44,183 nucleotides of DNA from a virus. Each line of letters opens with the position of its first letter. The first letter of the stretch is position 1. The DNA is taken from the IMG/VR virus record IMGVR_UViG_3300033153_005033, positions 1-44,183 of that record, one strand, 5' to 3'. Positions 3,202 to 35,779 of this stretch are shown here, piece by piece. The notes beneath the pieces are model-generated. The model was not told where the DNA came from. It was given only the letters and a program-made list of their open reading frames with translations, and ran no database searches. Position numbers and translations under genes: made by a program.

Positions 3202-3804
3202 ATGGCCAGCATTTACAATAAAGATGACATAGATAGGTTTTTTGACTACGATATACACTTACCTACTAAAACTTTGTACTTAGGTTCAGCTAATTACTCG
3301 GACGAACACGGTGAGACTGGTACTGATCACTTAATGGCTGAGATGGCAATCAAAGGTTTGCATTTGTTGGACAAAACTAAACCTGACTCACCCCTAACTA
3401 TCGTAATGAACAATCCTGGAGGCGACGAGTATCACGGCCTAGCTATTTACGACGCTATTAAGATGTGTACTAGTGAAGTACACATAAAAGTGTTAGGACA
3501 TGCTATGTCTATGGGAAGTATCATACTACAAGCGGCTGATTGGAGAATTATGACAGAAAATTCTAGGATGATGCTACACTACGGTACTTGGGGACACAAC
3601 GACCATACACTGAACGTATATAAATGGGCAGAAGAAGGCAAAAAGTTTGATAAGTGGATGGAAGATCTATATTTGGAAAAGATTCACCAAAAAAAGCCTA
3701 CTTATACTAGAAAGAAACTACAGACGGAGATATCTTTCGATAAGTTTTTAACAGCAGCAGAAGCAGTTGATATGGGACTAGCAGACGAAGTTCTAATCAC
3801 TTAA
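3202..3804 (+). CDS. ClpP-like serine protease (cytoplasmic)
   Basis: A 200-aa protein of ClpP fold. The triad can be placed: Ser103 in GHAMSMGS (ClpP GQAASMGA), His126 in MMLHYG, and Asp180 in FDKFLTAAEAVDMGLAD (ClpP RDxFxSAxEAxxYGLxD). The NNPGG loop at about 70-74 matches the ClpP oxyanion-side loop. There is no signal peptide, so it acts in the cytoplasm. In phages ClpP-like proteins are often head-maturation proteases, but this one sits in a replication block far from visible head genes. It could instead act on host or replication proteins, perhaps with a host Clp ATPase. Start ATG at 3202, 1 nt after the previous stop. Confidence 0.85.
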   Translation: MASIYNKDDIDRFFDYDIHLPTKTLYLGSANYSDEHGETGTDHLMAEMAIKGLHLLDKTKPDSPLTIVMNNPGGDEYHGLAIYDAIKMCTSEVHIKVLGHAMSMGSIILQAADWRIMTENSRMMLHYGTWGHNDHTLNVYKWAEEGKKFDKWMEDLYLEKIHQKKPTYTRKKLQTEISFDKFLTAAEAVDMGLADEVLIT

Positions 3805-3813
3805 GGAGAGTAA

Positions 3814-4134
3814 GTGTTATTAGCATTCTTATTAGGTTTCGTAGGACTGTTGTGCCAAGCTTACGTAAGTTACGAACCCTCTATACAAAATAAATGGTAC
3901 TACTACCCACTAGGAGTAGGATTAAATGCTTTGGGAGCCTTTTTGTGGTTCTACGTTGCTAAGATAACTTCTGGAAAAGGGACTTTCTTAGCTGCTATGG
4001 TATGGGATAGTATGGCAGCCGCTGCTTTCCTACTTTTACCTTTACTGTTATTTAACATTAAGTTGACGGGATTGAATATAATAGGACTACTATTTGGAAT
4101 AGTAGGAATAGTTTTGATGAAACTTGGAGGATAA
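3814..4134 (+). CDS. Small integral membrane protein, about four TM helices
   Basis: GTG start at 3814, placed after AAGGAGAG. The 106 aa are almost entirely hydrophobic, with segments near 1-18, 28-48, 56-80 and 84-103. Length and topology resemble small multidrug-resistance/EamA half-transporters, and the C-terminal GLLFGIVGIVLMKLGG is similar in style, but I see no conserved glutamate in helix 1. A transport function is therefore not claimed. It lies between the protease and polymerase genes. Confidence 0.65.
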   Translation: MLLAFLLGFVGLLCQAYVSYEPSIQNKWYYYPLGVGLNALGAFLWFYVAKITSGKGTFLAAMVWDSMAAAAFLLLPLLLFNIKLTGLNIIGLLFGIVGIVLMKLGG

Positions 4135-4136
4135 CT

Positions 4137-6452
4137 TTGCAAAACGCTACAACACACATTATTGACTCCTTACCACTACTAAAAAGACTATATACTTATT
4201 ATGAAACACTGTCACCAGAATTAGTAGTGTTAGACCTTGAAACTGACAGCCCTATAGAAAAAGTGGCTAATTTATACGGTTTAGGACTATGCTTCAACCT
4301 TAAAAAAGCGTTTTACATAGCGTGGAGAAATCCAGACGGAAGTCATGTGTGGAGTGTTTCTGAGAGAGCTAGTATAGCTGAGTGGTTGGAGAGCGTATGC
4401 ACTAAGTCAAAGTTAATAGGACATAACATATCTTTCGACACTATAGTATTTCGTAACGAGACTAAAATAAATCTCACCCCTCTCATATATAGTGACACCA
4501 TACTATTAAAACATTCTATAGACGAGGAACGACCTTTTGCTTTGAAAGAATTAGGAGTGCGAGAATTAGGTGAGTGGGCAGACAAAGCTCAAGACGACCT
4601 GAAAGAAGCTGTATTGGCAGCTGGAGGAAGTTGGAAAAAAGCTCAAAAGGACATGTACTTAGCTCCAACAGAAATATTAGGTAAGTATTGTTGTTGGGAC
4701 GTACTAATTACTTTAGAACTGTTCAACACTTATCAAGAAAGACTAATCTCAGAAGGACTTTACGACTTATTTTACAAAGAAGAAGTGATGCCTTTATACA
4801 AAGAAGTCACAATTCCTATGAAAGAAGTTGGAGTGCGTATTGATGTGAAACACTTCGAGAAATTAAAAAGTGACATAGAAACAGACATGACAACCCTAAC
4901 CAACAAGATTCAAAAAGACGTTGGACAAGATGTGTACAATTTTGTCCAGAGTATACTGGATAAAGATTGTCCAATAAAAAACAAAGGAAACTTTCCTAAA
5001 ATTTTAGCAGAAGTGTTGGGAGTATCTTTACCTATAAATAGAAAGACTGGAGCCTTTTCTTTGGCAGCGAAGGCATTGGAGAAACAAGTCAAAGCAACTC
5101 CTCAATACAAACCTTTTTACGATTGGTTGTCTGGTACGGCGCAGTTGAAGAAAGTCTTCACTAAAGGTAAATTGTCTAACGCTGATGGAGACCTTTGCGT
5201 AACTAATAGAGACCTTAGATACGTTCAGGAGAAGATGTACTTTAACAAGTCTGTTAACGCTGACAAAACCCACGTATTTAATTTGAATAGTTCTGACCAC
5301 ATAGCACATTTAATATTCCAAATACATAAGTTTCCTAAAGATCCTAGAAAGACTACTGATGGAGGAAAACCTCAAGTAGACGTAGAGGTATTAGAATCTT
5401 TTGCAGGAGGTTTACCAATCATAGACGACCTACTAACCTTAAAAAAGTTGGCTAAGTTGTACAGCACTTACGTAATGGGTATATTGGACAGGCAAATTGA
5501 CGGTAGAGTGTACGCATCTTTACTACAGTTCGGTACTACTAGTGGTAGATACGCTTGTAAGAACCCTAACTTGAACAACTTACCTAGACCTCCAGATAAA
5601 ATTACTACTGTTGTTGAAGAGTACACTAATGCTATTCGAGCAGGCTTTATTGCTAGTGAAGGACATAGTTTAATTGACACTGACTATAGTGCATTGGAGC
5701 CTCGGTGTTTTAGTGCGGTGAGCGGTGACAAAGGTTTAATAGATCTTTGGGCTAAAGGTGAGGACATGTATAGTAGAATTGCTATAGACGTATTCGAACT
5801 AAAAAACATCAGCGCCAATCCGAACGACAAAAACTACTTAAAAAAAATAGACCCAGAGTATAGGCAGAAATCAAAAATATTTTGCTTGGCCGTACCGTAC
5901 GGTGCTGAGGCTGGACGCATATCACAGGCTATGAAATGCTCTAACAAAGAAGCTAAGTCAGTTATAAACAAGTACCTAAGTACTTACACAGGTCTTAAGA
6001 AGTACATGAGAGACCAAGAACACGAAGCGAAGACTACTGGAAAAGTAACTACCATGTTCGGTAGAGTACGACACTTACCTAAAGTAAAAAGTATTTATGC
6101 GATTTACGGAGATCAAGTACTTGACTACACTTGGGCTAAGCAAAACAGACTACTTGAAGTTAGACGTAAGTTTAAGAACGGACTAAATAACGCTAAGAAT
6201 TTTTCTATTCAAGGCCTTGCCGCTCACGTATTAAATAGAGCTATGATAGCAATAGCTAGGAGACTTGCAGCAGGTAATTACAAGGCTAGAATGATACTAC
6301 CCGTACATGACCAGCTGATTGTTGACTGCCCTGACGATGAGCTGGAGGCAGTGTTTAAAATAATACAAGACTGCATGGAGAACACTACTAAAATTTCCGT
6401 ACCTTTTATAGCAGAGCCAGAAATAGCACAAAATATGGCGGAGAGTCACTGA
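4137..6452 (+). CDS. polA: Family A DNA polymerase with 3'-5' exonuclease
   Basis: TTG start at 4137, six bases after GGAGG. The 771-aa protein has an N-terminal proofreading domain (LDLETD with Asp33/Glu35, GHNISFD with Asp101, YCCWD with Asp188). The polymerase domain follows: motif A DYSALEPR (Asp516, Glu521), motif B starting at Arg576 (RQKSKIFCLAVPYG: Lys580, Leu584, Tyr588) and motif C VHDQ (His724, Asp725). There is no 5'-nuclease domain, as in T7-type phage enzymes. Leu584 occupies the position of E. coli Phe762, a residue known to affect nucleotide selectivity and a type common in virioplankton. Motif C has Gln where VHDE is usual. This is the probable phage replicase. Confidence 0.95.
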   Translation: MQNATTHIIDSLPLLKRLYTYYETLSPELVVLDLETDSPIEKVANLYGLGLCFNLKKAFYIAWRNPDGSHVWSVSERASIAEWLESVCTKSKLIGHNISFDTIVFRNETKINLTPLIYSDTILLKHSIDEERPFALKELGVRELGEWADKAQDDLKEAVLAAGGSWKKAQKDMYLAPTEILGKYCCWDVLITLELFNTYQERLISEGLYDLFYKEEVMPLYKEVTIPMKEVGVRIDVKHFEKLKSDIETDMTTLTNKIQKDVGQDVYNFVQSILDKDCPIKNKGNFPKILAEVLGVSLPINRKTGAFSLAAKALEKQVKATPQYKPFYDWLSGTAQLKKVFTKGKLSNADGDLCVTNRDLRYVQEKMYFNKSVNADKTHVFNLNSSDHIAHLIFQIHKFPKDPRKTTDGGKPQVDVEVLESFAGGLPIIDDLLTLKKLAKLYSTYVMGILDRQIDGRVYASLLQFGTTSGRYACKNPNLNNLPRPPDKITTVVEEYTNAIRAGFIASEGHSLIDTDYSALEPRCFSAVSGDKGLIDLWAKGEDMYSRIAIDVFELKNISANPNDKNYLKKIDPEYRQKSKIFCLAVPYGAEAGRISQAMKCSNKEAKSVINKYLSTYTGLKKYMRDQEHEAKTTGKVTTMFGRVRHLPKVKSIYAIYGDQVLDYTWAKQNRLLEVRRKFKNGLNNAKNFSIQGLAAHVLNRAMIAIARRLAAGNYKARMILPVHDQLIVDCPDDELEAVFKIIQDCMENTTKISVPFIAEPEIAQNMAESH

Positions 6453-6709
6453 TGAGAAGCGAAACTTTAACTTGCGTTTGTAGCGCAATAACTCACTCTA
6501 TTAGAGTGTCTACTATAGATGGCGACGAAGATCTTTATGTAGAGGTATTAAATATACCGTCCGACTACTTTCACCACCGAGTTATTCAAGGAGTAAAATT
6601 GATGTTTGGCTTGAGGAGTCACTCTGCTGAAGTTGTACTGAATACACAACAACAAAAGAAACTTACGCACCTACTACAGAAAAAGCTTGACAAGTCTTTG
6701 AAAGTATGA
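6452..6709 (+). CDS. Hypothetical protein, 85 aa
   Basis: Starts in the TGATG overlap with the polymerase stop, so it is translationally coupled to it. GGAGAG lies upstream. The protein is soluble and mixed alpha/beta by appearance, ending in a lysine-rich helix. It carries no motif I recognise. Position suggests a replication accessory, which is only an inference. Confidence 0.6.
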   Translation: MRSETLTCVCSAITHSIRVSTIDGDEDLYVEVLNIPSDYFHHRVIQGVKLMFGLRSHSAEVVLNTQQQKKLTHLLQKKLDKSLKV

Positions 6710-6736
6710 GACTATTAGGACTTGAAAGGAGAAGTC

Positions 6737-7297
6737 ATGAGTTTTAGAGAGATAGAATATAAATATAAGGCAGATGGAGTAGGTCTCACTCAATTCTGCA
6801 CTCTTATGGAAACGTTGCAGGTCGAGAAGAGATTAGACGTATCCTCTTGGGACAGATACTACACTAAAGAAGGCGAGCCAGAAAGTTTTCAACGCTACCG
6901 TTCTGGGAATACCCCTGAGCTTACTAAGAAGCGTAAAGTAAATACCAATAACAATTGGGAGCGTGTGGAGATAGACCTACCCTTAGACCCCTCTCTTGTT
7001 ACTGAGGAGATAGTGTCCAAATACGTAGCGTTAGACGGGTACAAAGAAAACTTTAGGATATACAAAACTTGTAGTATCTTTTGGTTAGACAACATCAACT
7101 TTGTTTACTATATAGTATATGATAAAGAGCTTAGAGAAAAAGCTAGGTTCATTGAAGTAGAGGTAAATAAAGACAAAGTAATTGGTTTGGAAGATGCTGG
7201 AGCTACTCTAAACGAAGCTGAGAAAATACTAGCTGAACTAGGCATTTCACCTAAGAATAGACTTAAGAAATCTCTGTACGAGATGTTCGTAAAGTAA
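6737..7297 (+). CDS. CYTH-domain protein (triphosphate tunnel metalloenzyme family)
   Basis: The N-terminal REIEYKYK (Glu5-x-Glu7-x-Lys9) is the ExExK signature of the CYTH superfamily (class IV adenylyl cyclases, thiamine triphosphatases, inorganic tri-polyphosphatases). Later strands carry the charged residues expected inside the tunnel: QRYR, LTKKRK, ERVEIDL and FIEVEVN. The length of 186 aa fits the domain alone. The family hydrolyses or cyclises triphosphate substrates with metal; the substrate here cannot be read from sequence. A TTG at 6722 is in frame, but ATG 6737 follows AAAGGAGA and is the likely start. Its role in the phage is unknown. Confidence 0.82.
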   Translation: MSFREIEYKYKADGVGLTQFCTLMETLQVEKRLDVSSWDRYYTKEGEPESFQRYRSGNTPELTKKRKVNTNNNWERVEIDLPLDPSLVTEEIVSKYVALDGYKENFRIYKTCSIFWLDNINFVYYIVYDKELREKARFIEVEVNKDKVIGLEDAGATLNEAEKILAELGISPKNRLKKSLYEMFVK

Positions 7298-7727: not shown

Positions 7728-8585
7728 ATGAAAAAATTATTATTAACAGCTTTCTTGCTTATGTTATCTACACTAGCGGAAGCAAAAACAGTAAAAGTGA
7801 CGCTAACTGAAAACAATACTATCAGTATGAGAGATTATTTTTATTTCGGTTCAGTTGTAAAGGTTATGCAAAAAGCTCACGAACTAGATTCACTACTACC
7901 TACTAAAGCTCCGATTTATTTAATTTTAGATTCTGGAGGAGGTTCAATCTCAGCTGGGCTTGAGCTAATCGAGAACCTAAAAAATCTTAAGAGACCTGTA
8001 CGAACTATCACACTGTTCGCTGCTTCAATGGGTTTTCAGACTGTACAAGGTTTGGGTACTAGACTAATTCAACGAGAAGGTACTTTGATGAGTCATAAGG
8101 CTAGAGGAGGTTTCTTTGGAGAATTTCCAGGACAACTAGATTCTAGATACTCTTTTTGGTTACGTCGAGTAACTGTGATGGAAGAGACCACAGTTAGTAG
8201 AACTAAAGGAACACACACACTACAATCATACAGAAATTTGATTGAGAATGAGTACTGGTGTCAAGGCGCAGACTGCATTAAACAAGGTTTTGCGGACGTT
8301 CTTGTCAATGCTACGTGCGCTTCTGACCTACAAGGCACAGTGGAGCATCATGATATATGGTTTCAGCAAGGACATAGAATAGATCTAATTACCCACAGAG
8401 ACAAATGCCCTTTGAATACTGGAGTCATTAAACAAGAAGTTGATATTAGTCCTCTACTAGAAGCTAGTGAGTACCAAGACAACCACCTAACTCCTGCGCA
8501 GAACCATGAGATCATAACTAGTATTAACGAGCGTAAGCAGAAAATCTTAAACAATGTTAACAGAGTAGTCCACAAAGGATATTAA
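7728..8585 (+). CDS. Exported ClpP/SppA-like serine peptidase
   Basis: Residues 1-19 form a classical Sec signal peptide (KK, hydrophobic core, AEA cleavage site). The mature part has a ClpP-fold core: LILDSGGGSISAG (about 66-77), the nucleophile segment FAASMGF with Ser100, and LMSHKARGG with His123. In the segment aligned with the catalytic Asp (EYWCQGADCIKQGFAD) the acid is Glu or absent. Several cysteines suggest disulfides in an oxidising compartment. It would act in the periplasm or at the envelope, possibly on membrane or cell-wall proteins during infection. It is a second, divergent ClpP-like protein besides the one at 3202. Start ATG follows AAGGAAA. Confidence 0.78.
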   Translation: MKKLLLTAFLLMLSTLAEAKTVKVTLTENNTISMRDYFYFGSVVKVMQKAHELDSLLPTKAPIYLILDSGGGSISAGLELIENLKNLKRPVRTITLFAASMGFQTVQGLGTRLIQREGTLMSHKARGGFFGEFPGQLDSRYSFWLRRVTVMEETTVSRTKGTHTLQSYRNLIENEYWCQGADCIKQGFADVLVNATCASDLQGTVEHHDIWFQQGHRIDLITHRDKCPLNTGVIKQEVDISPLLEASEYQDNHLTPAQNHEIITSINERKQKILNNVNRVVHKGY

Positions 8586-9942: not shown

Positions 9943-10237
9943 TTTATACAACATCTTCAACAAGAAGAAAATCACTAAGTCAGAAATACCAAAGCCGCCT
10001 AAGTCTGAAGAAAATTTTCTGGACAGATTTAAGAACTGTTTATTGAACGCAGAAAAAAACGGTTATTGTGATTGTGATATTTGTGAAGATAAAGTACAAC
10101 TATCCAACAAATTATTCGATATTGTGCGGTATCTGTGTAAAAGTTATACTGAAGAGACTGGAAATAAGATGTACGTAGCCGACGCTTTAGAGATAGTGTT
10201 GGTAGTAGCCACTAAACTAAAAGACGAAATAAAATAG
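9935..10237 (+). CDS. Hypothetical cysteine-containing protein, 100 aa
   Basis: A GTG at 9911 is in frame, but the ATG at 9935, overlapping the dUTPase stop, gives a more natural N-terminus. Neither has a strong ribosome site, so the start is uncertain. The middle holds a CDCDIC cluster that could bind metal, and the rest is helical. I do not recognise a family. Confidence 0.55.
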   Translation: MDNLYNIFNKKKITKSEIPKPPKSEENFLDRFKNCLLNAEKNGYCDCDICEDKVQLSNKLFDIVRYLCKSYTEETGNKMYVADALEIVLVVATKLKDEIK

Positions 10238-10245
10238 GAATATTT

Positions 10246-11091
10246 ATGGAAGTTTACTCTGGTATGTTAGTGTTAGATATTAAAGAAACGGACTGGCAGC
10301 AATGGTACGAAGAAGGTAAAATAAGCTTGTCTGGGTACAATAAAGACAAAACTTTTTACCCGAACATGGGAGTAGTACTAAAGTCTGAAGGAAAAAAACA
10401 ACACGGAATTGTAAAAGGTAATTTCATAGAAAAGATACCCTTTACTCAGGCTTTTGGAGTTAAACCTAAGAACACCGAACAATCACTTGCTATGGGAATG
10501 TTATTAGACGACGACGTAAAGCTGAAGATGGTTACTGGCAAAGAAGGTACAGGAAAAAATTTCATCACTGCGGCGTGTGTACTAGAGATGTTGCTTAACA
10601 AAAAATCTTACAATAAGTTAGTGCTTACTAGAACTACTGACGAAGTAGGAAAAACTTTAGGACTGTTTCCAGGATCTGCAGAAGAGAAGTTCGCTAACCA
10701 CACTGCAAGTTTTTTGTATACTCTTAAAGCTATCATGGGTGATGACGGAGCTTACATCGACGTGATGATGGAGAAGGGTGAGATAGAATACTTACCAGTA
10801 CAGTTGATGAGAGGGATTTCTTTCCCTCCTGGAACTTTGGTATGGGCTGATGAAATTGCAGGTCTATCTCCTTACGAGCTTAGGATGCTTGGCACTAGAT
10901 TAGGAGAAGATTGCGCCTTAATATTGACTGGTAGTTTTGAGCAGATAGATAGGAAAGGTAGTGCGGAAGGTACAGGACTAGCAAAGCTTGTCAATAGCGT
11001 TAAGATTAAGAACAGTGACCTAAGCAGTCACATAGAGTTAATCAAAAATGAGAGAAGTGCCCTGTCTAAACTAATAAGCGACACACTATGA
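10246..11091 (+). CDS. phoH: PhoH-like P-loop ATPase
   Basis: A 281-aa protein with the PhoH-type ATPase core: NTEQSLAMGMLLDD before the P-loop, P-loop GKEGTGKN (Gly98-Asn105), LVLTRT, a Walker B region LVWADEIAGLSP and TGSFEQID. These match the order in PhoH and PhoH2-type helicase/nucleases, found in many phages with an RNA-related or unknown role. The P-loop ends in Asn where Thr or Ser normally binds Mg2+, which is unusual. The residues before about 65 are not conserved by eye. It overlaps the next gene by ATGA. Confidence 0.85.
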   Translation: MEVYSGMLVLDIKETDWQQWYEEGKISLSGYNKDKTFYPNMGVVLKSEGKKQHGIVKGNFIEKIPFTQAFGVKPKNTEQSLAMGMLLDDDVKLKMVTGKEGTGKNFITAACVLEMLLNKKSYNKLVLTRTTDEVGKTLGLFPGSAEEKFANHTASFLYTLKAIMGDDGAYIDVMMEKGEIEYLPVQLMRGISFPPGTLVWADEIAGLSPYELRMLGTRLGEDCALILTGSFEQIDRKGSAEGTGLAKLVNSVKIKNSDLSSHIELIKNERSALSKLISDTL

Positions 11092-18037: not shown

Positions 18038-18086
18038 TGATTTCACAATATGAAGTCACATCAGATAATGAAATGATAGGGGATAT

Positions 18087-18275
18087 ATGTTAAGTAGAGA
18101 GCAAAGGAAATGTATAGCCCTAGAGCTACTATACGATGCCGTAGAAATGTGGGAGATTTGTAGAAGGCTTGACGATGTTGATGTCCCAGGATCTACAGAA
18201 GAGCACATGGAGTCTATACATGCACTGATAAGCGCATTTAACCTAGTTAAAGTAATAGTAGAGGAGAATTCGTGA
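18087..18275 (+). CDS. Small acidic hypothetical protein, 62 aa
   Basis: ATG follows ATAGGGGAT. The protein is helical and soluble with two or three cysteines. It overlaps the next gene by 4 nt. Not recognised. Confidence 0.5.
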   Translation: MLSREQRKCIALELLYDAVEMWEICRRLDDVDVPGSTEEHMESIHALISAFNLVKVIVEENS

Positions 18276-18454
18276 TTGAATTGAAATATAACCATAGTAA
18301 TATGAGAAGCGGTAAAGTGACTGAAACAGCGTCAGTAGTACTGCCTCACGACGACATTAGTATGGAAGACTTTTATGAAGCAGTCAAGAGGTTTGCACTT
18401 GTGTGTGGGTATCATCCAGACACTGTTACTGAGTATTTTGGAGAAGGTGGATGA
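18272..18454 (+). CDS. Small hypothetical protein, 60 aa
   Basis: GTG start in a GTGA overlap, with GAGGAG upstream. The protein is soluble with a beta-strand-like N-terminus followed by a helix (DISMEDFYEAVKRFALVCGY). Small phage proteins of this layout are common; function unknown. Confidence 0.55.
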   Translation: MIELKYNHSNMRSGKVTETASVVLPHDDISMEDFYEAVKRFALVCGYHPDTVTEYFGEGG

Positions 18455-22671: not shown

Positions 22672-23571
22672 ATGAAACAAAAAAATAAAAACTACTCAGG
22701 ATTCGTTAGTCGCAACGGACTATTCAAGGCTGCTGAAAATCAGGTATTGGTAGACAAGCTCCCTCCAGGTACTTACGGAGTAGAGCAAGACTTGGCTGGA
22801 AACTTGTACTTCAGGGACACAGAAGTTAATTGCGACTCCTTAGTAGACCTGCCTGACCCTGCTTACGAAAAGGTTGTGAACGAAATGGAACACTTCCTGA
22901 GACCAGAGACGAAACAAAGGTTCAAGGATTTAGGATATTTATACAAGAGAAGCTCACTGCTTCACGGTCTTCCAGGTACTGGAAAGACGTCAATCGTAAA
23001 TAGAGTAGCAAAAGCAACTATAAAAAAACAAGGCGTAGTACTATTGAATCCTGTACCTAGCGTACTACAAGAAGCCTTAACTATAATAAAAGACTTACAA
23101 CCAGAAGCTACTGTTCTAGTAGTCTTTGAAGAGCTTGACCAACTACTAGTAAACTATGAGTCAGAGCTTCTTAACGTATTAGACGGAGAAGTACAGAAGG
23201 ATAACGTAATTTATCTAGCTACTACTAACTTCATTAAAGAAGTACCTCCTAGACTACTAAGACCTGGAAGATTCTCTTCAGTTATTGAAGTAGGATACCC
23301 TAACGCAGCTGCTAGAAGAGCTTACCTAAGAACTAAGTTAAATGAAGATAAGGCTGTTAGTATTGCTAGTGCTACTAAAGGACTGTCTATAGACGAACTT
23401 AAAGAAGTAGTACAGTCAACTGAATGTTTTGAGTACGACCTAAAAGACACTATACAACGTATAAAAGACGTTAAGAAGTTGGCAGGAGAAGATAAGAGAG
23501 CTAGTGACGAGTACGATACTACTCTCTATGAAGAGAGGTTGATCAGTAGACATCACCACGGTAATCTTTGA
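22672..23571 (+). CDS. AAA+ ATPase (FtsH/Cdc48-type module)
   Basis: Residues 60-90 resemble the N-linker of AAA modules (DPAYEKVVNEMEHFLRP). Walker A is HGLPGTGKTS (98-107). The Walker B region VLVVFEELDQ has Glu where Asp is usual. Sensor 1 is ATTN (183-186) and the arginine-finger region is PPRLLRPGRF (192-201). The 299-aa protein has no protease domain, so it may unfold proteins for a separate protease such as the ClpP-like one, or act alone. An in-frame ATG at 22657 is possible; neither start has a strong ribosome site. Confidence 0.85.
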   Translation: MKQKNKNYSGFVSRNGLFKAAENQVLVDKLPPGTYGVEQDLAGNLYFRDTEVNCDSLVDLPDPAYEKVVNEMEHFLRPETKQRFKDLGYLYKRSSLLHGLPGTGKTSIVNRVAKATIKKQGVVLLNPVPSVLQEALTIIKDLQPEATVLVVFEELDQLLVNYESELLNVLDGEVQKDNVIYLATTNFIKEVPPRLLRPGRFSSVIEVGYPNAAARRAYLRTKLNEDKAVSIASATKGLSIDELKEVVQSTECFEYDLKDTIQRIKDVKKLAGEDKRASDEYDTTLYEERLISRHHHGNL

Positions 23572-23993
23572 TGTTGTCTCCAGAGCTACAAGAACTCTTA
23601 CTTAAGATGTTATTCGCTACTATAGCTGGAGGCATTGTAGGCTTAGAGAGAGAGTTTAGGAATAAGGACGCAGGACTTAAGACGTTTGTACTTATATGTT
23701 CTGGAGCTGCTATATTCTCTCACTTGGGTATGCTATTAGGTAGTACAGACCCTGCTAGAATAGCTGCTCAGATAGTTACTGGAGTAGGTTTCTTAGGAGC
23801 AGGAGCTATCTTTAAGGGTAAGGATAGGATATCAGGCCTAACTACAGCAGCCTTTATATGGGTAGTATCTGCTATAGGAGCTTTGATAGGTATAGGGTTA
23901 GTAGAAGAAGGTTTACTTTTGGCTGTAGGTATGGTAATATCAGTATCAGTTACAGGGTTTATAGAATCTCTAATTAGGAAGGTAAGAACATGA
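23571..23993 (+). CDS. MgtC/SapB-like membrane protein
   Basis: 140 aa with the MgtC N-terminal domain pattern: GGIVGLEREFRNKDAGLKT (20-38), DPARIAAQIVTGVGFLGAGA (about 61-80) and GLTTAAFIW. Four to five TM helices are expected. Cellular MgtC has an extra C-terminal cytoplasmic domain, which is missing here. MgtC supports growth at low Mg2+ and modulates the host ATP synthase in pathogens; a phage copy could tune host energy or ion state. ATG at 23571 overlaps the AAA stop by one base. Confidence 0.85.
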   Translation: MLSPELQELLLKMLFATIAGGIVGLEREFRNKDAGLKTFVLICSGAAIFSHLGMLLGSTDPARIAAQIVTGVGFLGAGAIFKGKDRISGLTTAAFIWVVSAIGALIGIGLVEEGLLLAVGMVISVSVTGFIESLIRKVRT

Positions 23994-25010: not shown

Positions 25011-25139
25011 ATGAGTAGAGATTGGTGGGACATGTTTGTCTGGGGATACGCCTCAGGACTGGATGGAGATGATGACGAAAACAACGAAGAGTTCGTTGAT
25101 ATTAATATTACTATTGAAATAGGAGAAGACGATGACTGA
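25011..25139 (+). CDS. Tiny very acidic protein, 42 aa
   Basis: Read directly: ATG at 25011 after AAGGAG, TGA at 25137-25139. N-terminus SRDWWDMFVWGYASG is aromatic, and the rest is dominated by Asp and Glu. It overlaps the histone-fold gene by 8 nt. An acidic partner of a DNA-binding histone-like protein (chaperone-like) is an attractive but unproven idea. Confidence 0.55.
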   Translation: MSRDWWDMFVWGYASGLDGDDDENNEEFVDINITIEIGEDDD

Positions 25140-25320
25140 AGAGAAAGTACCTCTACTTATTGTAGCTAGTAAGGTTAAAGCTTACGTTAAGGACAAAGGA
25201 TTGAGAACTTCTGAAGGGTTCCTTCACATGTTATCAGAACGTTTGACCATTACTATCGATCAATGCATTGAAGATGCTTTGGCAGACGGTAGGAAGACTG
25301 TGATGGACAAAGACGTTTAA
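25132..25320 (+). CDS. Bacterial-type histone-fold protein, 62 aa
   Basis: The protein is a single predicted histone fold. IVASKVKAYVKDKG forms helix 1, TSEGFLHMLSERLTITIDQCIEDALADG the long helix 2, then loop GRKTV and a final Asp61. Arg54-x-Thr56 and Asp61 match the archaeal histone RKT loop and the Arg-Asp clamp with the same 7-residue spacing (HMfB Arg52-Asp59). VASKVKxYxK with RKTV is the style of small bacterial histones such as that of Bdellovibrio. It probably dimerises and bends or coats DNA. AGGAGA precedes the ATG. No relatives were searched. Confidence 0.75.
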   Translation: MTEEKVPLLIVASKVKAYVKDKGLRTSEGFLHMLSERLTITIDQCIEDALADGRKTVMDKDV

Positions 25321-25526
25321 ATAAAGGTATTGGAGGCTGCACTGGAAGCTAGGGTCGTTGGAATATCTATAGCCTACATCCCTTAGAGAAGTGTTGAGCG
25401 ATAAATGGAGCCTTACTTGCGTAAGAGGTTGATCTCTCGTAACATAGAGTTGGTACAAGTTGAGCTTACTAGACGTAGAGGTAGGAAGTAGCGTCCTACC
25501 CTCCAGTCAAACGAAAGGTTTATATT
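25321..25526 (+). other. Intergenic region with small hairpins and a doubtful 28-codon ORF
   Basis: 206 nt without a clear gene. It contains CTTAC-TTGC-GTAAG (25412-25425) and GGTAGGA/TCCTACC (25480-25486 with 25494-25500) hairpins. An ATG at 25405 opens a 28-codon basic ORF ending at 25491 without a good ribosome site. No promoter, tRNA or known riboswitch was recognised. It could be a small RNA or an mRNA leader for the lipoprotein at 25527. Confidence 0.4.
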
Positions 25527-25601
25527 ATGAAATTTATTGTTGTACTATTAATGTTGTTTCTATGTAGTTGTGGTTACGTAGTAGGTAAGATACTTAAATA
25601 A
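25527..25601 (+). CDS. Tiny predicted lipoprotein, 24 aa
   Basis: Read directly: ATG at 25527 with AAAGG upstream. MKFIVVLLMLFLCSCGYV is a signal sequence with a cysteine pair suited to lipidation at Cys15, leaving a mature peptide of about 10 residues, as in entericidin-like peptides. The stop codon lies at the base of the terminator hairpin. Confidence 0.55.
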   Translation: MKFIVVLLMLFLCSCGYVVGKILK

Positions 25602-25638
25602 GAAAGCCCCTAGCTAATTTCTAGCTAGGGGCTTTCTT
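25600..25638. terminator. Bidirectional terminator between convergent blocks
   Basis: Perfect 17-bp inverted repeat (25600-25616 with 25622-25638, core AAAGCCCCTAGCTA) and a 5-nt loop. Flanked by T-rich sequence on the right and A-rich on the left, so it can stop transcription from both the forward accessory genes and the reverse tail genes. Confidence 0.93.
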
Positions 25639-25652
25639 TTAATTAGTTGTTA
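25633..25652 (-). repeat. Intercistronic repeat, copy A (degenerate)
   Basis: Reverse-strand TAACAACTAATTAAAAGAAA, one base different from copy B; the change destroys the Shine-Dalgarno core. It lies after the last tail gene with no gene downstream, and overlaps the terminator arm. Confidence 0.7.
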
Positions 25653-29684: not shown

Positions 29685-30554
29685 TTACCAAGCTTGCGGC
29701 TGGTGGTTAGTTAATTGTTCTATCACCACGTAACTTACTTCGTGCTCATCTCTTGAAGCACTCACAGTATCTAACTCACCTTTTAGGTGAAACCCAGAAA
29801 ATCCTCCGGCTTGAAAGGAAATTTGTGAGTTGATTGCTGTTACGTACATAACGGCAGTTCCTGGACTTGCCGAAGATTTCTGTGGGCAAGTTGCCTGAGC
29901 AATTTTATCAGCATCCAAGCCGGTCATAGGTCCGTTGTACACTGCCATCCATATATCCGCACCGTTCGTACAACCTAAATAAAATGTTATTTTGTATGCA
30001 TATCCTGCAGGCACGTTAAAGCCGAAATCACTGACAGTTCCTCCGTCAGGAAAATCATTGTGCAGTCTCTTTTTTTGGTACAAAACCTTACTTAGGTTGT
30101 TTGTCAGTGTTTGTTCCTGACCTAAAGTGTTTTTTGTTTTGATGTTCCCTATACCATCATTAAAAATCTTTAAGTCTCCTACGTTAGTAGGAGATGATGG
30201 ACTTGCTGAAAATGGAATAGTAGTTTCAATAACGGAGATTCTATTGGTTGTTATGTCAGTTGAATTTACGTTGGTAGTGTTTACGTCTGTGGCACTTACT
30301 GTGGGAGTACTTACAACATTCCCTGACACCGTACCAGTCGCCGACACTGTAGTAGCACTAACTGCGTTAGCACTTACAGTGCCAGTAGCACTTACTGTGG
30401 TAGCACTTACTGTATCAGTAACCGTAGCGTCTACTGCTGTTGCCGTCTTATCAGCGTTGACGTCCTCAGTGGTAGTAATAGTTTCGGTAACGTCTATAAA
30501 GGTTGCCCCTTCTACACTACCGTCTTTTAGTTTTGTAGGTTCTTTAACGCTCAT
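29685..30554 (-). CDS. Tail fibre-like protein with VSAT repeats, 289 aa
   Basis: Residues about 47-85 hold tandem short repeats (VSATTVSATGTVSANAV and similar), which in phage fibres form thin repetitive beta-helical or trimeric shafts. A linker (PSSPTNVGDLKIFNDGIGN) resembles fibre regions that print on a base. The C-terminal 130 residues look like a jelly-roll/beta-sandwich tip (ISFQAGGFSGFHLKGELDT). Likely a host-contact or accessory fibre. AAGGAAAT precedes the ATG; it touches the next gene upstream. Confidence 0.72.
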   Translation of the reverse strand: MSVKEPTKLKDGSVEGATFIDVTETITTTEDVNADKTATAVDATVTDTVSATTVSATGTVSANAVSATTVSATGTVSGNVVSTPTVSATDVNTTNVNSTDITTNRISVIETTIPFSASPSSPTNVGDLKIFNDGIGNIKTKNTLGQEQTLTNNLSKVLYQKKRLHNDFPDGGTVSDFGFNVPAGYAYKITFYLGCTNGADIWMAVYNGPMTGLDADKIAQATCPQKSSASPGTAVMYVTAINSQISFQAGGFSGFHLKGELDTVSASRDEHEVSYVVIEQLTNHQPQAW

Positions 30555-33500
30555 TATAATTTCCTTAATAAAAAGCTAATGAAGTTGGTTACCTGAGTAC
30601 CAGCTAAGTTAGTTGAAGTGTATTGTAACTGTCCTGAGTCAGACATTGTTAACTCTACCCCTACATCAGACCCGATGAAAGTACTCTCTCCGATATGCCA
30701 ACGTTGTGTGTTGTCGTCGAAGAACCCTCTAAGAGTCAAGTGTTTACTGGTAGTAGTGTCTGCTACTAGCATAGCTAAGTTTGTAGCGGATATGGAATCA
30801 ACATCAGTGAACGTACCGTTTATTAGTGTATGGCCTTGGTATCCTATAGATACTCCAGTCAATGACACTCCAGTACTTGTGTGGATTGGGAAAGTGTCGT
30901 CTACCGTTCCGTCTACGTTCAACCTTACTAAGTTGTCAGCAGGGTCTCCGTTAAAGTCTTGGAAGTCTCCCACTACAACAAGCTTACCGTCAGGTTGTCT
31001 AGCAATATCTCTTACAATATTGTCAAAGGCCGTACCTACCGTAGTTGTGTACTCAGTGTTTTCAGTTCCGTCATTATTTAGTTTGACTACGTATCCAACA
31101 GGACTCCCCTCAAAAGCTACTAAACTTCCTGCTAGTATTATACTGTTGTCGCTTTGACCTATTATCTTGTTTATTCCTGGTCCAGCAACACCTACAGTGT
31201 TATTGAACCCTGGCTGCAATCTACCGAACTTGTCAAACTTTCTAAGCACTTGAGTTGCGTCCCAGAAAGACTCTTCTCCGGTGATTATTATGTCTCCGTT
31301 AGGTAGTACTGCTCCTTTTTTACCGTGTCTTATAGGGTCACTGTCCATAGCTCCTGGGGCACTGCCAGATACGTACCTAACTGCCCAAACACTCTGTTCG
31401 AAGTCGACGTCCAACAAACCCTGTGAAGTAATTCTAGTCATCGCTACAGGTGAGTTTTGTGGACCACCATTAATTTCTACTGACGCAGTGGTAGTTGTTA
31501 TATCTCCTACCAGTACTATCTTATTATCAGGTTGTAGAAGAATATCATAAATCAATAGCCCTCCAGAACCTCCTGTATAGGCTAATTCTGCCCAGTTTCC
31601 TACAGCCGTAGGATTAAAACTAGAGTCAATATCTCCGCTCGTCGATAATCTTAATAGTTTGGTGGAAACGTCTGAATTGAGAGCTACGTAAGTGAAGTCG
31701 CCTCCTACTAAAATATTTCCAGTAGGTTCTACTATTATGGAGTTTATGCTTATACTATCTCCAGACTGAGTGAAAGTTCCTATAGCGTTTCTAAAATCAG
31801 TGTCGTCAGTTCCGTCCACATTTATTCTAATCAATCTCTTGTTAGGCGCTACGTTATCTGGAGCAGCCAAACCGACTAAAACTTTGCCGTCTGGTTGCAT
31901 GGCTATAACACTTCCTGCAGGTACTGTAAAACCATTAGCAGTGTGGTTGGTTTGCCAAGTAGTATTAATAGTAGGTGCTAAAGCGTTAGTCCTACTCAAT
32001 ACTACGTCTGCAGAGAAGCCTTTGTCTATTGTGGAGTCAACCGCAAAATCTGGTATGTTTGTAAGTTCTGTTCGGTTGTTTTGTAAGTCTACTCTAGTTT
32101 TTGTAGGTAAGTTATTTTCCCAATTTAGATTCCCGTCGCCGTCATTGGTCATAGACTGCCCAGACAAGCCTTGAGTGGATGGTAGTAGCATTCTATAATC
32201 TGTAGTCAGTTTGGTCGCTTGAATTTCTGCTGAACCTGAAGTAGCTCCGTGTAATTTTATGTTAGTAGATTCGAAAGTATTTTTCACGTCTACCGCAAAC
32301 ACTAAAGGAGTGTTGTAAGCGTTCCACGAAAAAAGAGTTCCAGTCTCTTCCAAAAGCATACCTTCTGGGTAAGTCGGTAGTACAGTGGATTCAGTTCTTA
32401 ATATACTAGGGGTGACGTCAGAAGTTACTTCTTCAAACACTAAAAAATAGTTAGTCCCTTTTTTTATCTCTGCTGGAGTTGGGAATGAGAATGTTATTGT
32501 TTGCCATTGTCCAAACGCAACCGAGCCTGCAGGTATAACTGCGCTTGTAGCTAAAAGTCCTGTTGCTTGAGGAGTTCCAGTATTACCTTCAATTTCTGCA
32601 AATAGTTCCGCTTTGTACGTTAGGTTGTCAGGTTGGTTTAGTTGTACTCTAATTTCTTCAATTAGGCCTGTCTCATTAGCTAAGAACTTCTGCGCAAGTC
32701 TAGTGTTTAGTGCGCTAGTACCTACTACTGTGCTATCGTCTCCAGAAGTCTGCTCAGCTGTCAGTGAGATGACTTCCGTAGTAGTGGAGCTAGTTTGAGT
32801 TACTCCTTTACTAACGTTTAATCCTTGGTCTGCAGATACTACTAATCCTTGAGTACCTGTAATATCTACATCACCTTGACCTGAATCAGTAGTAATTCTT
32901 ACTGGTAAGTTGGTAACGTCTAGGTCATAAGCTTCTTGTAACGTTCCAGACTGAGCACCTGTTACTGCTGCAGATTCACTTTGTAATAAAAACTTACGTA
33001 TAGTTGTGATAACTGCTGAGGAACCTGACCTTTTAACTAAGACAGCTCCCATTTTTTTGTCTCCAGTTATAGCTGGGTACGGAGCTAAGGCTGGGTTAGC
33101 GTCAGAACTAGCTGCTGGAGTTGCTGTCAATATAGCAGTGACTCTATTGTCTGCAGAAGTGGTATCTTCCACTAACGAAAGGGAAAACCATTTATATTCA
33201 TTGTCAGAGGTTATATCTAATAGGATACCATTAAGACCGTCTGCTCCAGTACCTGCAGTAAAGTCTACCGTACCTCCAGAATAATCTATTATAAGTTCTG
33301 ATGATTGTTGAGAAAGTATAGAACCGTCTAATAGAGTTATGTCAGCTCCAGATACGTCTACTGTATCAGTACTAGACTGAGTTATTCTAATCTGCCCTAA
33401 CATTCTATTAAGCTCTGCTAAAGCTCCATCAAACTCTAGTTGTTCTTTATCTTTAAGTAAGAAGCTATTTCCTACTAGTACGTCATCTCCTACTCTCCTA

Positions 33501-35779
33501 GCAATAACTAGTATAGAAGCGTCTAAAGGTACTAAAGCAATATCAATAGCACTTACAGTAAGAACTCCTCCTGGAGCTGATCTATTAAGGTTAACGTATA
33601 ACACCTTACCGTCTGCATCTAGTCCACTAGAACTTCCTGCAGGAATACTGTTGATAGCTTCTGTTAGTCCAGCAATACTGACGTTTGCTTCAGTACTCCA
33701 ACTAAGAGTGTCTGTTCCTAAGTCCCATGACCAAGTACCACCTCTAACTAACTTAGCAGTTCTATCTTGATTAATTATAGTAGCTGCGTCAGTGTTTCCA
33801 GACCCATCGTCAGCACTACTCTCTCCAGAGGCTAGTATAATGCCGTTGTTAATGTATATTGTATTAGTCTCTCTAGTAGCTATTACGTAAGTACTGTAAC
33901 CTACTGGTAGAGTTCCAGGAGCGAATGTATCTAAATACACTACGCTAGTTCCTGTTGCTGTAGTGTCTCCGTCTAAAGTAATAGTCTTGTTAACGTCGTC
34001 AATTGCTACTATAGCAGCTGATTCGTTACTAGAGGTAATCAACACTGTATTACCTATCTTTGCGCCAGATAAATCTGGAGAGCCGCTTAAAGTTATTGCT
34101 GTTCCAGCTACTCCAAAGTTAGTTGTAGTGAGGCTTAGCTGCCCGTTAGCGACGTCAGAGTCTGCGCTAAGGTCGTAGTCCAGAAAACACGCAAGGGTGC
34201 CTCCATCCTGCAGTACGGCTGTGCTAGCAGGTAGTGTGGATTTATATAAGCTGTGAGGATTTACTATTGCGTAAGGGTCTTCCCAAACTAGTAAACCTTC
34301 TATTAATGCTGTACCTCCTGTCAAAGTAGCGCCACTTACCGTAGCTCCTATAGTACCTTGATCAGTGTAAGATATAGTGTACGAGTTGGCAGCAGTTCCA
34401 CTATCTACAGAAGTGATAGTTACTAATGTTCCTACTGCTTCTGCTGTTACTATTCCTACCAATAACGGGTCTGTACTAGAGTTGATAGCTTGTGCCAAAG
34501 CTGTCGCTGTTATAGTATCGCTACCTGAAGCAGTAAAATCAGTCCCTTCAATAAAGTCTACAGTACGTACTTCAAAAGTGTCAGTACTAAGGTCAGCAAA
34601 AGAAGTGATAGTGAATGATCCAAATGCTTTGGACGCAGGTTCTACAGTGGTAGTACCTCCTCCAGCTAGAGTCAAATCAAACTTTGTGTTTGCTGTGTCT
34701 TGAGAAGCTCCTGTTTTTGAGATTACTTGTCTCATGTCAGTTATTGCTGAATCGTGAGTTAGTCCGTCAGTACTCTTCCAAACGAATTTGGCTACTGGGA
34801 AAAATCTCTGTCCTAGAGGACTTCCATTAACAGTGTCTGTTGTGTATACGTCTCTCTTAATCAATTGGTAAGAGTTGCTCAAATTTAACACTGGGTCAAC
34901 TTGGCCATATTCTTTGTCTAGTTTGATTATATCTTGGTCGGTAGTATTTGACGGGTCGTTCTGTAGGAATACGATGTGGTATTCGTTCCCAACATTGTCT
35001 ATAAGCTTTCCGCCAGCAAAATCATCTTGATGTGTGTTTGATTTTGGTAGAGGGTTTTGTGCTCCTGTAGAACTGTTCAATACAACTACGTCTAAATCTC
35101 TACCGTCAATCTGCTCTGAACCTACTATAGAATTAATAGCTAGTACTGATCCAGGAGACCCAGCTCCTGCGACGTTCACTGTTATCTTGTTTGTCAAGTT
35201 TCTATCAGTATTGTCATGACTCTTATAAGGAGTTTGACTCTCTACTTGTAAACTCTCCTCAACTATATTGATAGTGTACGATAGTCTTAGTTTCTGGGCC
35301 GTAGCTTCGCTTAAGTTGGCGCTCTTTAGAAACTTGTCCTCTAAATTAGTTACAACTTCCTCACGAGCTTCGACAACTACTCTGAAAGTATCACTAGGTA
35401 CTGATCCTGGCAAGGTTATCTTTTTTCCTGGGTACCCTACGTCAGTAGTTTGTAAGTCTGTGATGGTAGTTCCGCTAGGGTATATGCCCAAAGCTAGTTC
35501 TGTACCTGACACTAAAGCGTCTGTAGAAGACCTCAAGAAATAAGGAAGTCCGTCGTACCAAGCTTCTCCAGGCCTGATTACAAAGCTTAGGTTATCCAGT
35601 CTCTCTACTTTCCAAGCCTCGCCAACGGCAACGTCTCCTAGCTGATTTTTAATCAAAGCCCTAGAAAATTCCATCAACTCCAACTCTAAGTCAGTTGCTT
35701 CTGACGCAAGTAGAAAAGTACCTTCAATAAATCGTGAACGTAAGTATCGCTCACTTCTGAATGTGTTGAACTTTAAAAT
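30554..35779 (-). CDS. Giant tail/receptor-binding protein with delta-60 beta-propeller, probable AUU start
   Basis: Conventional starts are TTG 35683 and ATG 35674, but the open frame upstream reads KFNTFRSERYLRSRFIEGTF, clearly protein-like. GGAGGG at 35793-35788 lies 8 nt before an ATT at 35779, and no ATG, GTG or TTG exists between it and the in-frame stop at 35803-35801. With this start the protein has 1741 aa. The N-terminal 330 residues look baseplate-attaching. The middle has beta domains including a jelly-roll (QKFLANETGLIEEIRVQLNQ). The C-terminal part (+ strand about 30790-31930) has six or seven delta-60 repeats (QPDGKxxVGGDF ... LxRLNxDGTxDxxF), a beta-propeller likely to bind the host surface. 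Confidence 0.78.
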   Translation of the reverse strand: MLKFNTFRSERYLRSRFIEGTFLLASEATDLELELMEFSRALIKNQLGDVAVGEAWKVERLDNLSFVIRPGEAWYDGLPYFLRSSTDALVSGTELALGIYPSGTTITDLQTTDVGYPGKKITLPGSVPSDTFRVVVEAREEVVTNLEDKFLKSANLSEATAQKLRLSYTINIVEESLQVESQTPYKSHDNTDRNLTNKITVNVAGAGSPGSVLAINSIVGSEQIDGRDLDVVVLNSSTGAQNPLPKSNTHQDDFAGGKLIDNVGNEYHIVFLQNDPSNTTDQDIIKLDKEYGQVDPVLNLSNSYQLIKRDVYTTDTVNGSPLGQRFFPVAKFVWKSTDGLTHDSAITDMRQVISKTGASQDTANTKFDLTLAGGGTTTVEPASKAFGSFTITSFADLSTDTFEVRTVDFIEGTDFTASGSDTITATALAQAINSSTDPLLVGIVTAEAVGTLVTITSVDSGTAANSYTISYTDQGTIGATVSGATLTGGTALIEGLLVWEDPYAIVNPHSLYKSTLPASTAVLQDGGTLACFLDYDLSADSDVANGQLSLTTTNFGVAGTAITLSGSPDLSGAKIGNTVLITSSNESAAIVAIDDVNKTITLDGDTTATGTSVVYLDTFAPGTLPVGYSTYVIATRETNTIYINNGIILASGESSADDGSGNTDAATIINQDRTAKLVRGGTWSWDLGTDTLSWSTEANVSIAGLTEAINSIPAGSSSGLDADGKVLYVNLNRSAPGGVLTVSAIDIALVPLDASILVIARRVGDDVLVGNSFLLKDKEQLEFDGALAELNRMLGQIRITQSSTDTVDVSGADITLLDGSILSQQSSELIIDYSGGTVDFTAGTGADGLNGILLDITSDNEYKWFSLSLVEDTTSADNRVTAILTATPAASSDANPALAPYPAITGDKKMGAVLVKRSGSSAVITTIRKFLLQSESAAVTGAQSGTLQEAYDLDVTNLPVRITTDSGQGDVDITGTQGLVVSADQGLNVSKGVTQTSSTTTEVISLTAEQTSGDDSTVVGTSALNTRLAQKFLANETGLIEEIRVQLNQPDNLTYKAELFAEIEGNTGTPQATGLLATSAVIPAGSVAFGQWQTITFSFPTPAEIKKGTNYFLVFEEVTSDVTPSILRTESTVLPTYPEGMLLEETGTLFSWNAYNTPLVFAVDVKNTFESTNIKLHGATSGSAEIQATKLTTDYRMLLPSTQGLSGQSMTNDGDGNLNWENNLPTKTRVDLQNNRTELTNIPDFAVDSTIDKGFSADVVLSRTNALAPTINTTWQTNHTANGFTVPAGSVIAMQPDGKVLVGLAAPDNVAPNKRLIRINVDGTDDTDFRNAIGTFTQSGDSISINSIIVEPTGNILVGGDFTYVALNSDVSTKLLRLSTSGDIDSSFNPTAVGNWAELAYTGGSGGLLIYDILLQPDNKIVLVGDITTTTASVEINGGPQNSPVAMTRITSQGLLDVDFEQSVWAVRYVSGSAPGAMDSDPIRHGKKGAVLPNGDIIITGEESFWDATQVLRKFDKFGRLQPGFNNTVGVAGPGINKIIGQSDNSIILAGSLVAFEGSPVGYVVKLNNDGTENTEYTTTVGTAFDNIVRDIARQPDGKLVVVGDFQDFNGDPADNLVRLNVDGTVDDTFPIHTSTGVSLTGVSIGYQGHTLINGTFTDVDSISATNLAMLVADTTTSKHLTLRGFFDDNTQRWHIGESTFIGSDVGVELTMSDSGQLQYTSTNLAGTQVTNFISFLLRKL

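Follow-up and report, generated by a model that had tools for sequence, protein, structure and literature searches.

A single-domain alpha3 histone encoded on a tailed-phage contig appears to straddle the two cellular alpha3 classes

Does a phage encode a histone of the bacterial type, and on whose DNA would such a protein act? The question arises from a 62-aa ORF in the window, the whole 44,183-bp stretch of DNA analyzed here, which probably is a fragment of a phage genome. A block of genes on the plus strand encodes a DnaB-like helicase, an ATP-dependent ligase, an exonuclease, DNA polymerase A, two ClpP-like proteins, a UvsX-like recombinase, a dUTPase, PhoH, a Holliday-junction-type nuclease, ribonucleotide reductase, a dNMP-kinase-like protein, ThyX, an AAA ATPase, MgtC, and a calcineurin-like phosphoesterase. 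The minus-strand block contains tail genes, including those for T4-type baseplate proteins, and the contig comes from a tailed phage with a T4-like baseplate. Phage relatives of its baseplate and polymerase genes are only distant. Terminase searches with phrog_2 and PF03237 were mostly without match on the histone-bearing contigs, so their identification as phages depends on the other genes present and on their being listed in IMG/VR. The 62-aa ORF is the last sizeable gene of the plus-strand block of replication and nucleotide metabolism genes, and on its 3´ side lie non-coding DNA that is conserved, then a very small lipoprotein-like ORF, and, where the two blocks converge, a hairpin. Much of the window is collinear, at ~67-88% DNA identity, with a sister phage contig (G001/L002). 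The features around the ORF are:

23568-23993, plus strand: MgtC-family membrane protein in the same gene run (PF02308, 5.2e-33), kept in L002
24378-25001, plus strand: calcineurin-like phosphoesterase, upstream in the same gene run (PF00149, 2.4e-12), conserved in L002
25011-25139, plus strand: acidic ORF of 42 aa, with L002 conservation and a strong SD sequence, AAGGAGT
25132-25320, plus strand: alpha3 (bacterial-type) histone ORF of 62 aa, from phmmer, AlphaFold2, Foldseek, and dN/dS against L002, with the SD-like sequence TAGGAGAAG upstream
25335-25510, plus strand: conserved non-coding stretch after the histone gene, from alignment with L002 (about 10204-10380)
25605-25645, no strand assigned: GC-rich inverted repeat GCCCCTAGCTAATTTCTAGCTAGGGGC with flanking A/T runs, read from the sequence and conserved in L002

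Other genes in the window also were noted. The two separate ClpP-like protease genes lie at 3202-3804 and 7728-8585 (plus strand), and the second matches head maturation protease families despite its replication-gene surroundings. Near the tail genes, a 1709-aa protein with DUF5122 beta-propeller repeats (30554-35683, minus strand), a possible receptor-binding or fibre protein, has no INPHARED match. The MgtC protein has matches in 31 INPHARED records, none covering 80% of the protein. As for the host, the best identities of this protein across 30 histone-bearing genomes were no higher than 48-52% and fell in unrelated lineages.

An earlier note on this DNA had read the 62-aa ORF as a bacterial-type histone encoded by a phage and consisting of one histone fold, and phmmer, AlphaFold2, and Foldseek all bore this out. 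A phmmer search of 177,635 PDB sequences gave HLp as the best match (9qt0, E 4.7e-7), with HBb at E 7.1e-7 (8cmp) and 7.8e-7 (a further HBb match) and HTkC at E 0.0014 (9f2c). Relatives are encoded on 278 genome-contig stretches (genome_contigs). The ORF start (...LLIVASKVKAYVK) is of the VASKVK type and R54-K55-T56 and D61 are present, as had been read from the translation. The single-chain AlphaFold2 model, built from 54 aligned window and locus sequences, is a histone fold (mean pLDDT 91.3) with helices at residues 12-20 (alpha1), 28-51 (alpha2), and 59-61 (alpha3) by DSSP. In Foldseek searches of the PDB with this model, ranks 1-9 were taken by HBb, HLp, and HTkC (TMq 0.79-0.84, rmsd 0.9-1.3 Å). 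Of the two structures singled out beforehand for comparison, Bdellovibrio HBb proved close to the single-chain model (0.9 Å) and the archaeal HMfB (1a7w) distant, at rank 37 (TMq 0.59, E 0.28, rmsd 2.9 Å). The protein matches HMfB only as a general histone fold, and its nearest solved relatives are HBb and HLp. Neither a model lacking a histone fold nor best matches to an unrelated family, the outcomes that the earlier note had set against its own proposal, occurred.

No family was assigned to the protein by Pfam, PHROGs, or NCBIfam, so it would have escaped a search by name alone; its cellular relatives also are largely missed by generic libraries. PF00808 (CBFD_NFYB_HMF) gave no match in the window at E up to 1, but the cellular HBb-like L025 and L006 match it only below the curated cut-off, indicating that the profile is insensitive. 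Comparison with L002 showed that the gene is under strong purifying selection: 58 of the 62 residues are identical, differences by codon position are 7/2/23, and dN is 0.054 against a dS of 1.13.

Schwab et al. (2024; PMC11390915) define the alpha3 family by an alpha3 helix of 3-4 residues and by an alpha2 helix that falls 4-5 residues short of its length in nucleosomal histones. In the model, alpha3 has 3 residues and alpha2 has 24, with the short alpha2 judged from the match to HBb and HLp and the poor match to HMfB; the long alpha2 and alpha3 and the close HMfB match of archaeal nucleosomal (HMf-type) histones were not found. On sequence and model, then, the ORF encodes a single-domain histone of the prokaryotic alpha3 family. 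The alpha1 lysines K14, K16, and K20 and the RKTxxxxD motif (R54-K55-T56...D61) are kept, as in bacterial dimer histones. The HLp DNA contacts A13/S14/K15/K17/K21/T27/T57 correspond to identical residues A12/S13/K14/K16/K20/T26/T56, and two others are changed (T56 to K55, G29 to E28). For HBb, the ten residues with the most DNA contacts in simulation (T8/S9/K10/K12/K16/N22/S24/K52/T53/R57; PMC11317129) map to A12/S13/K14/K16/K20/R25/S27/K55/T56/K60, of which seven are identical (S9, K10, K12, K16, S24, K52, T53) and three differ (T8 to A, N22 to R, R57 to K). Nearly all of the mapped contact positions thus are kept.

The assignment to a class within the family was less clear-cut. At the two sites before L2 where FtF tetramers have R and N, the window and L002 proteins have D (D48, D52), making a dimer likelier than a tetramer. 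Class HMMs built here scored the protein at 69.8 bits as dimer-type versus 66.9 as FtF-type, whereas in leave-one-out tests no cellular sequence favored its own class by less than 21.6 bits. In the tree, it was joined to three dimer-type cellular rows at 98/96, on a long branch. L2 (ADGRKTVM) is of the HBb type, and L1 looks archaeal (LRTSEGF; HTkC reads MRVSPEF). By these sequence comparisons, the protein appears to fall between the two cellular alpha3 classes and to be a clean member of neither.

The reading that we favor, at a probability of about one half, is a dimeric, non-specific DNA-bending protein that acts on phage DNA and is made with the replication proteins. The protein would form a small homodimer and bind DNA non-specifically through S13, K14, K16, and K20 of alpha1 and R25, T26, S27, and R54-K55-T56 of the L1-L2 loops, with an R54-D61 clamp in this region, and would bend the DNA as HBb does. 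Synthesized alongside the phage proteins for replication and nucleotide metabolism, it would cover and bend phage DNA during replication, replacing or supplementing a host HU- or histone-type protein. The sequence and fold matches to HBb and HLp, the kept contacts, the purifying selection, and the replication-block setting all argue for this reading. These points, like the predicted monomer fold and the recurrence in other phages, were observed here, whereas it is inferred that the protein dimerizes, bends DNA, and acts on the DNA of the phage and not of the host.

The charge of the protein complicates this picture. The core net charge is 0, compared with a mean of +4.0 (sd 1.3, minimum +2) for the cellular set, and affinity for naked DNA therefore could be weak. 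E28 occupies a position that is A, S, or G in 45/45 cellular relatives and is equivalent to the DNA contacts A25 of HBb and G29 of HLp, and positions 48 and 50, commonly basic, are D and L. With E28 and so little charge, the protein might bind more weakly, or it might mix with a host histone. It could then be an invader of host chromatin, forming mixed dimers with a host alpha3 histone or competing for its sites so that the nucleoid is loosened or reprogrammed for the phage. Its core residues are kept while its charge is reduced, which would suit a weakened partner. Many bacteria have alpha3 histones, HBb is reported to be essential in Bdellovibrio (PMC11390915), phage proteins acting on host nucleoid proteins are known (LUZ24 gp4 on MvaT, PMC8501957; T4 MotB, PMC7827196), and some single-histone eukaryotic viruses insert their histone into host chromatin (PMC9145170). 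However, such a role presupposes a host with a histone, and the DNA contacts are kept rather than lost, unlike in a simple dominant negative; we consider it rather unlikely.

The acidic ORF overlaps the histone start by 8 nt (ATGACTGA), and its Asp/Glu-rich composition (net charge -14, pI 4.05) and position agree with the earlier description. It is by far the most acidic among the plus-strand-block ATG ORFs of at least 38 aa. Given its strong ribosome-binding site and its conservation in L002 (34/38 aligned residues, with in-frame indels), it probably is a real, translationally coupled small protein. An AlphaFold2 model from the two sequences was of low confidence (pLDDT 62). L002 was the sole relative found: tblastn against INPHARED returned nothing, and no similar acidic ORF precedes the histone gene at L003, L004, L005, or L087-L090. 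The suggestion that the histone and an acidic antagonist form a device consequently found no support, with the acidic ORF recurring only in L002 and missing at the other phage histone loci. The histone fold is also used by NF-Y-type transcription factors, and the 8-nt overlap, which suggests translational coupling of the two ORFs, could be taken to point to a local transcription or anti-silencing factor acting on particular promoters, perhaps with the acidic protein. We regard this as very improbable, as HBb and HLp bind without sequence specificity, the window protein shares the contacts of these non-specific binders, and the acidic partner is found in one sister phage only.

Downstream of the histone gene, the ~175-nt non-coding stretch (25335-25510) is well conserved in L002 with frame-breaking indels, and its ends (TGGAGG / CCTCCA) could pair. 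A structured RNA there is unsupported, since the stretch has no Rfam gathering match and its folding is no more stable than that of shuffles (z +0.76); an IMG/VR scan with it returned only the sister contig. It is followed by a 24-aa ORF with a lipobox-like signal (MKFIVVLLMLFLCSCGYVVGKILK; 25527-25601, plus strand), in place of which L002 has a longer lipoprotein-like ORF (about 10390-10618), such that the window ORF may be a shortened form. The inverted repeat lies between the plus-strand genes ending at 25.3-25.6 kb and the minus-strand genes from 25650 on; from its sequence and position it probably is a two-way terminator, and it was absent from the list produced by a consensus scan.

Histones of this family recur on other phage contigs. 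IMG/VR scans with histone queries and with the non-coding stretch revealed at least eight further contigs with alpha3 histones (L002, L003, L004, L005, L087-L090), a lower bound because the search used short peptide patterns. By comparison, tblastn of INPHARED (50,697 records) with the window, L003, L087, and cellular L006 histones found nothing. In BFVD, a few unnamed viral proteins have a similar fold (A0A516LIY4, A0A516M1G1, A0A6J5QYV5) and may include published phage histones. A second match on G006 (69350-69511) was rejected as a histone, being without the SKVK motif and antisense to a 347-aa ORF. The histone of L003, an 87-kb contig, carries the R and N of FtF histones, and its gene has nine genes for tRNAs and one for tmRNA in its vicinity (5842-7278 and 18071-18396, plus strand). 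L087-L090 are contigs of 168-190 kb, and the histone neighbors in L087 and L088 are RIIA-like, helicase, or virion-type. On L005 (45 kb), the histone is beside nuclease-, deaminase-, Sak4-, and primase-like genes, the last read by eye, and this second association with replication genes counts for the replication-linked role.

The histone on L004 (7.8 kb) has a different setting, between a Mu-F-like head gene and a prohead protease, downstream of terminase and portal. The head gene (3965-5137, plus strand), just upstream of the histone ORF, is interrupted by Hint/intein-like and HNH homing-endonuclease-like domains. One shared role for all of these histones therefore is not assured, and the L004 arrangement is what would be expected for a histone tied to the virion or to packaging that accompanies or condenses the DNA in the capsid. 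For the window protein such a role is improbable: its gene is in the replication and metabolism block, on the strand opposite to the tail genes, and the L004 protein diverges further than any other (K54 for R, S61 for D).

In the trees, window and L002 group with Myxococcota- and Spirochaeta-titled sequences at 97/88 and 98/96, apart from L005 and L087-L090. On the question of a single or a repeated capture, the trees call for 3-4 label changes, and a single phage clade with L004 left out is not rejected (p-AU 0.38). R25 in L1 is common to 8/9 phage histones but to only 2/45 cellular ones, L060 (titled Diapherotrites archaeon) and L080 (titled archaeon), and F30 is present in 6/9 versus 2/45. 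Phages could conceivably own a histone lineage, with low charge and an archaeal-type L1 (R25, usually F30), that mixes with or displaces the histones of histone-bearing hosts during infection, here with a co-translated acidic partner, but we hold this out as a long shot. Among cellular sequences, Bacteriovorax-type genome loci (L042, L047, L056, L063, and similar) carry ORFs of 130-132 aa with two SKVK...GRKTVM units in tandem, each of which resembles a complete bacterial histone.

Tailed phages with a histone have precedent in the 'phage histones' of Schwab et al. (PMC11390915); what is new is a motif-complete, single-domain phage histone that appears to straddle the two cellular alpha3 classes. 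A search of freely readable full texts found no other description of such a phage histone. That histones are major chromatin proteins in bacteria is a recent finding, and the sole described class of phage histones is built differently. With histones that mostly keep the DNA-contact motif on several unlike phage contigs, two questions become testable: whether phage DNA is organized by the phage's own histones, and whether phages act on host histone chromatin. The combination of an archaeal-like L1 with a bacterial-dimer-like L2 bears on the movement of alpha3 histones between archaea, bacteria, and viruses, and chromatin built on histones may be something that phages, too, exploit or disturb.

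Among known systems, HBb (Bd0055) of Bdellovibrio bacteriovorus (8cmp, 9ezz, 8fvx) resembles the window protein in length, fold (TMq 0.84, rmsd 0.9 Å), SKVK..xxK alpha1, near-identical L2, RD clamp, and lack of the FtF R/N pair, but the two share only 43% identity, the window L1 is one residue shorter, and R25, E28, and K60 replace N22, A25, and R57. HLp of Leptospira perolatii (FtF; 9qt0-9qt2) shares L1 length, LIVASKVKAY, and most DNA-contact residues; it has the FtF R and N where the window protein has D48 and D52, so wrapping tetramers as in FtF histones are not expected. The archaeal FtF histone HTkC of Thermococcus kodakarensis (9f2c) has the same fold and an L1 like that of the window and other phage proteins, but about 35% identity and no bacterial-dimer-like L2. 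The 'phage histones' of Schwab et al. (2024; A0A2E7QIQ9) also have the alpha3 fold and come from metagenome-derived tailed phages, yet they lack RxTxxxD and carry a C-terminal helical tetramerization domain (PMC11390915), whereas the window protein has RxTxxxD and ends at residue 62, right after alpha3. LUZ24 gp4 (PMC8501957) and T4 MotB (PMC7827196), small phage proteins that act on host nucleoid organization, are functional analogies only and are described as targeting H-NS-family proteins. Finally, bacterial dimer histones are found in bacteria, whereas the window histone comes from a virus record whose other genes include those for phage replication and baseplate proteins.
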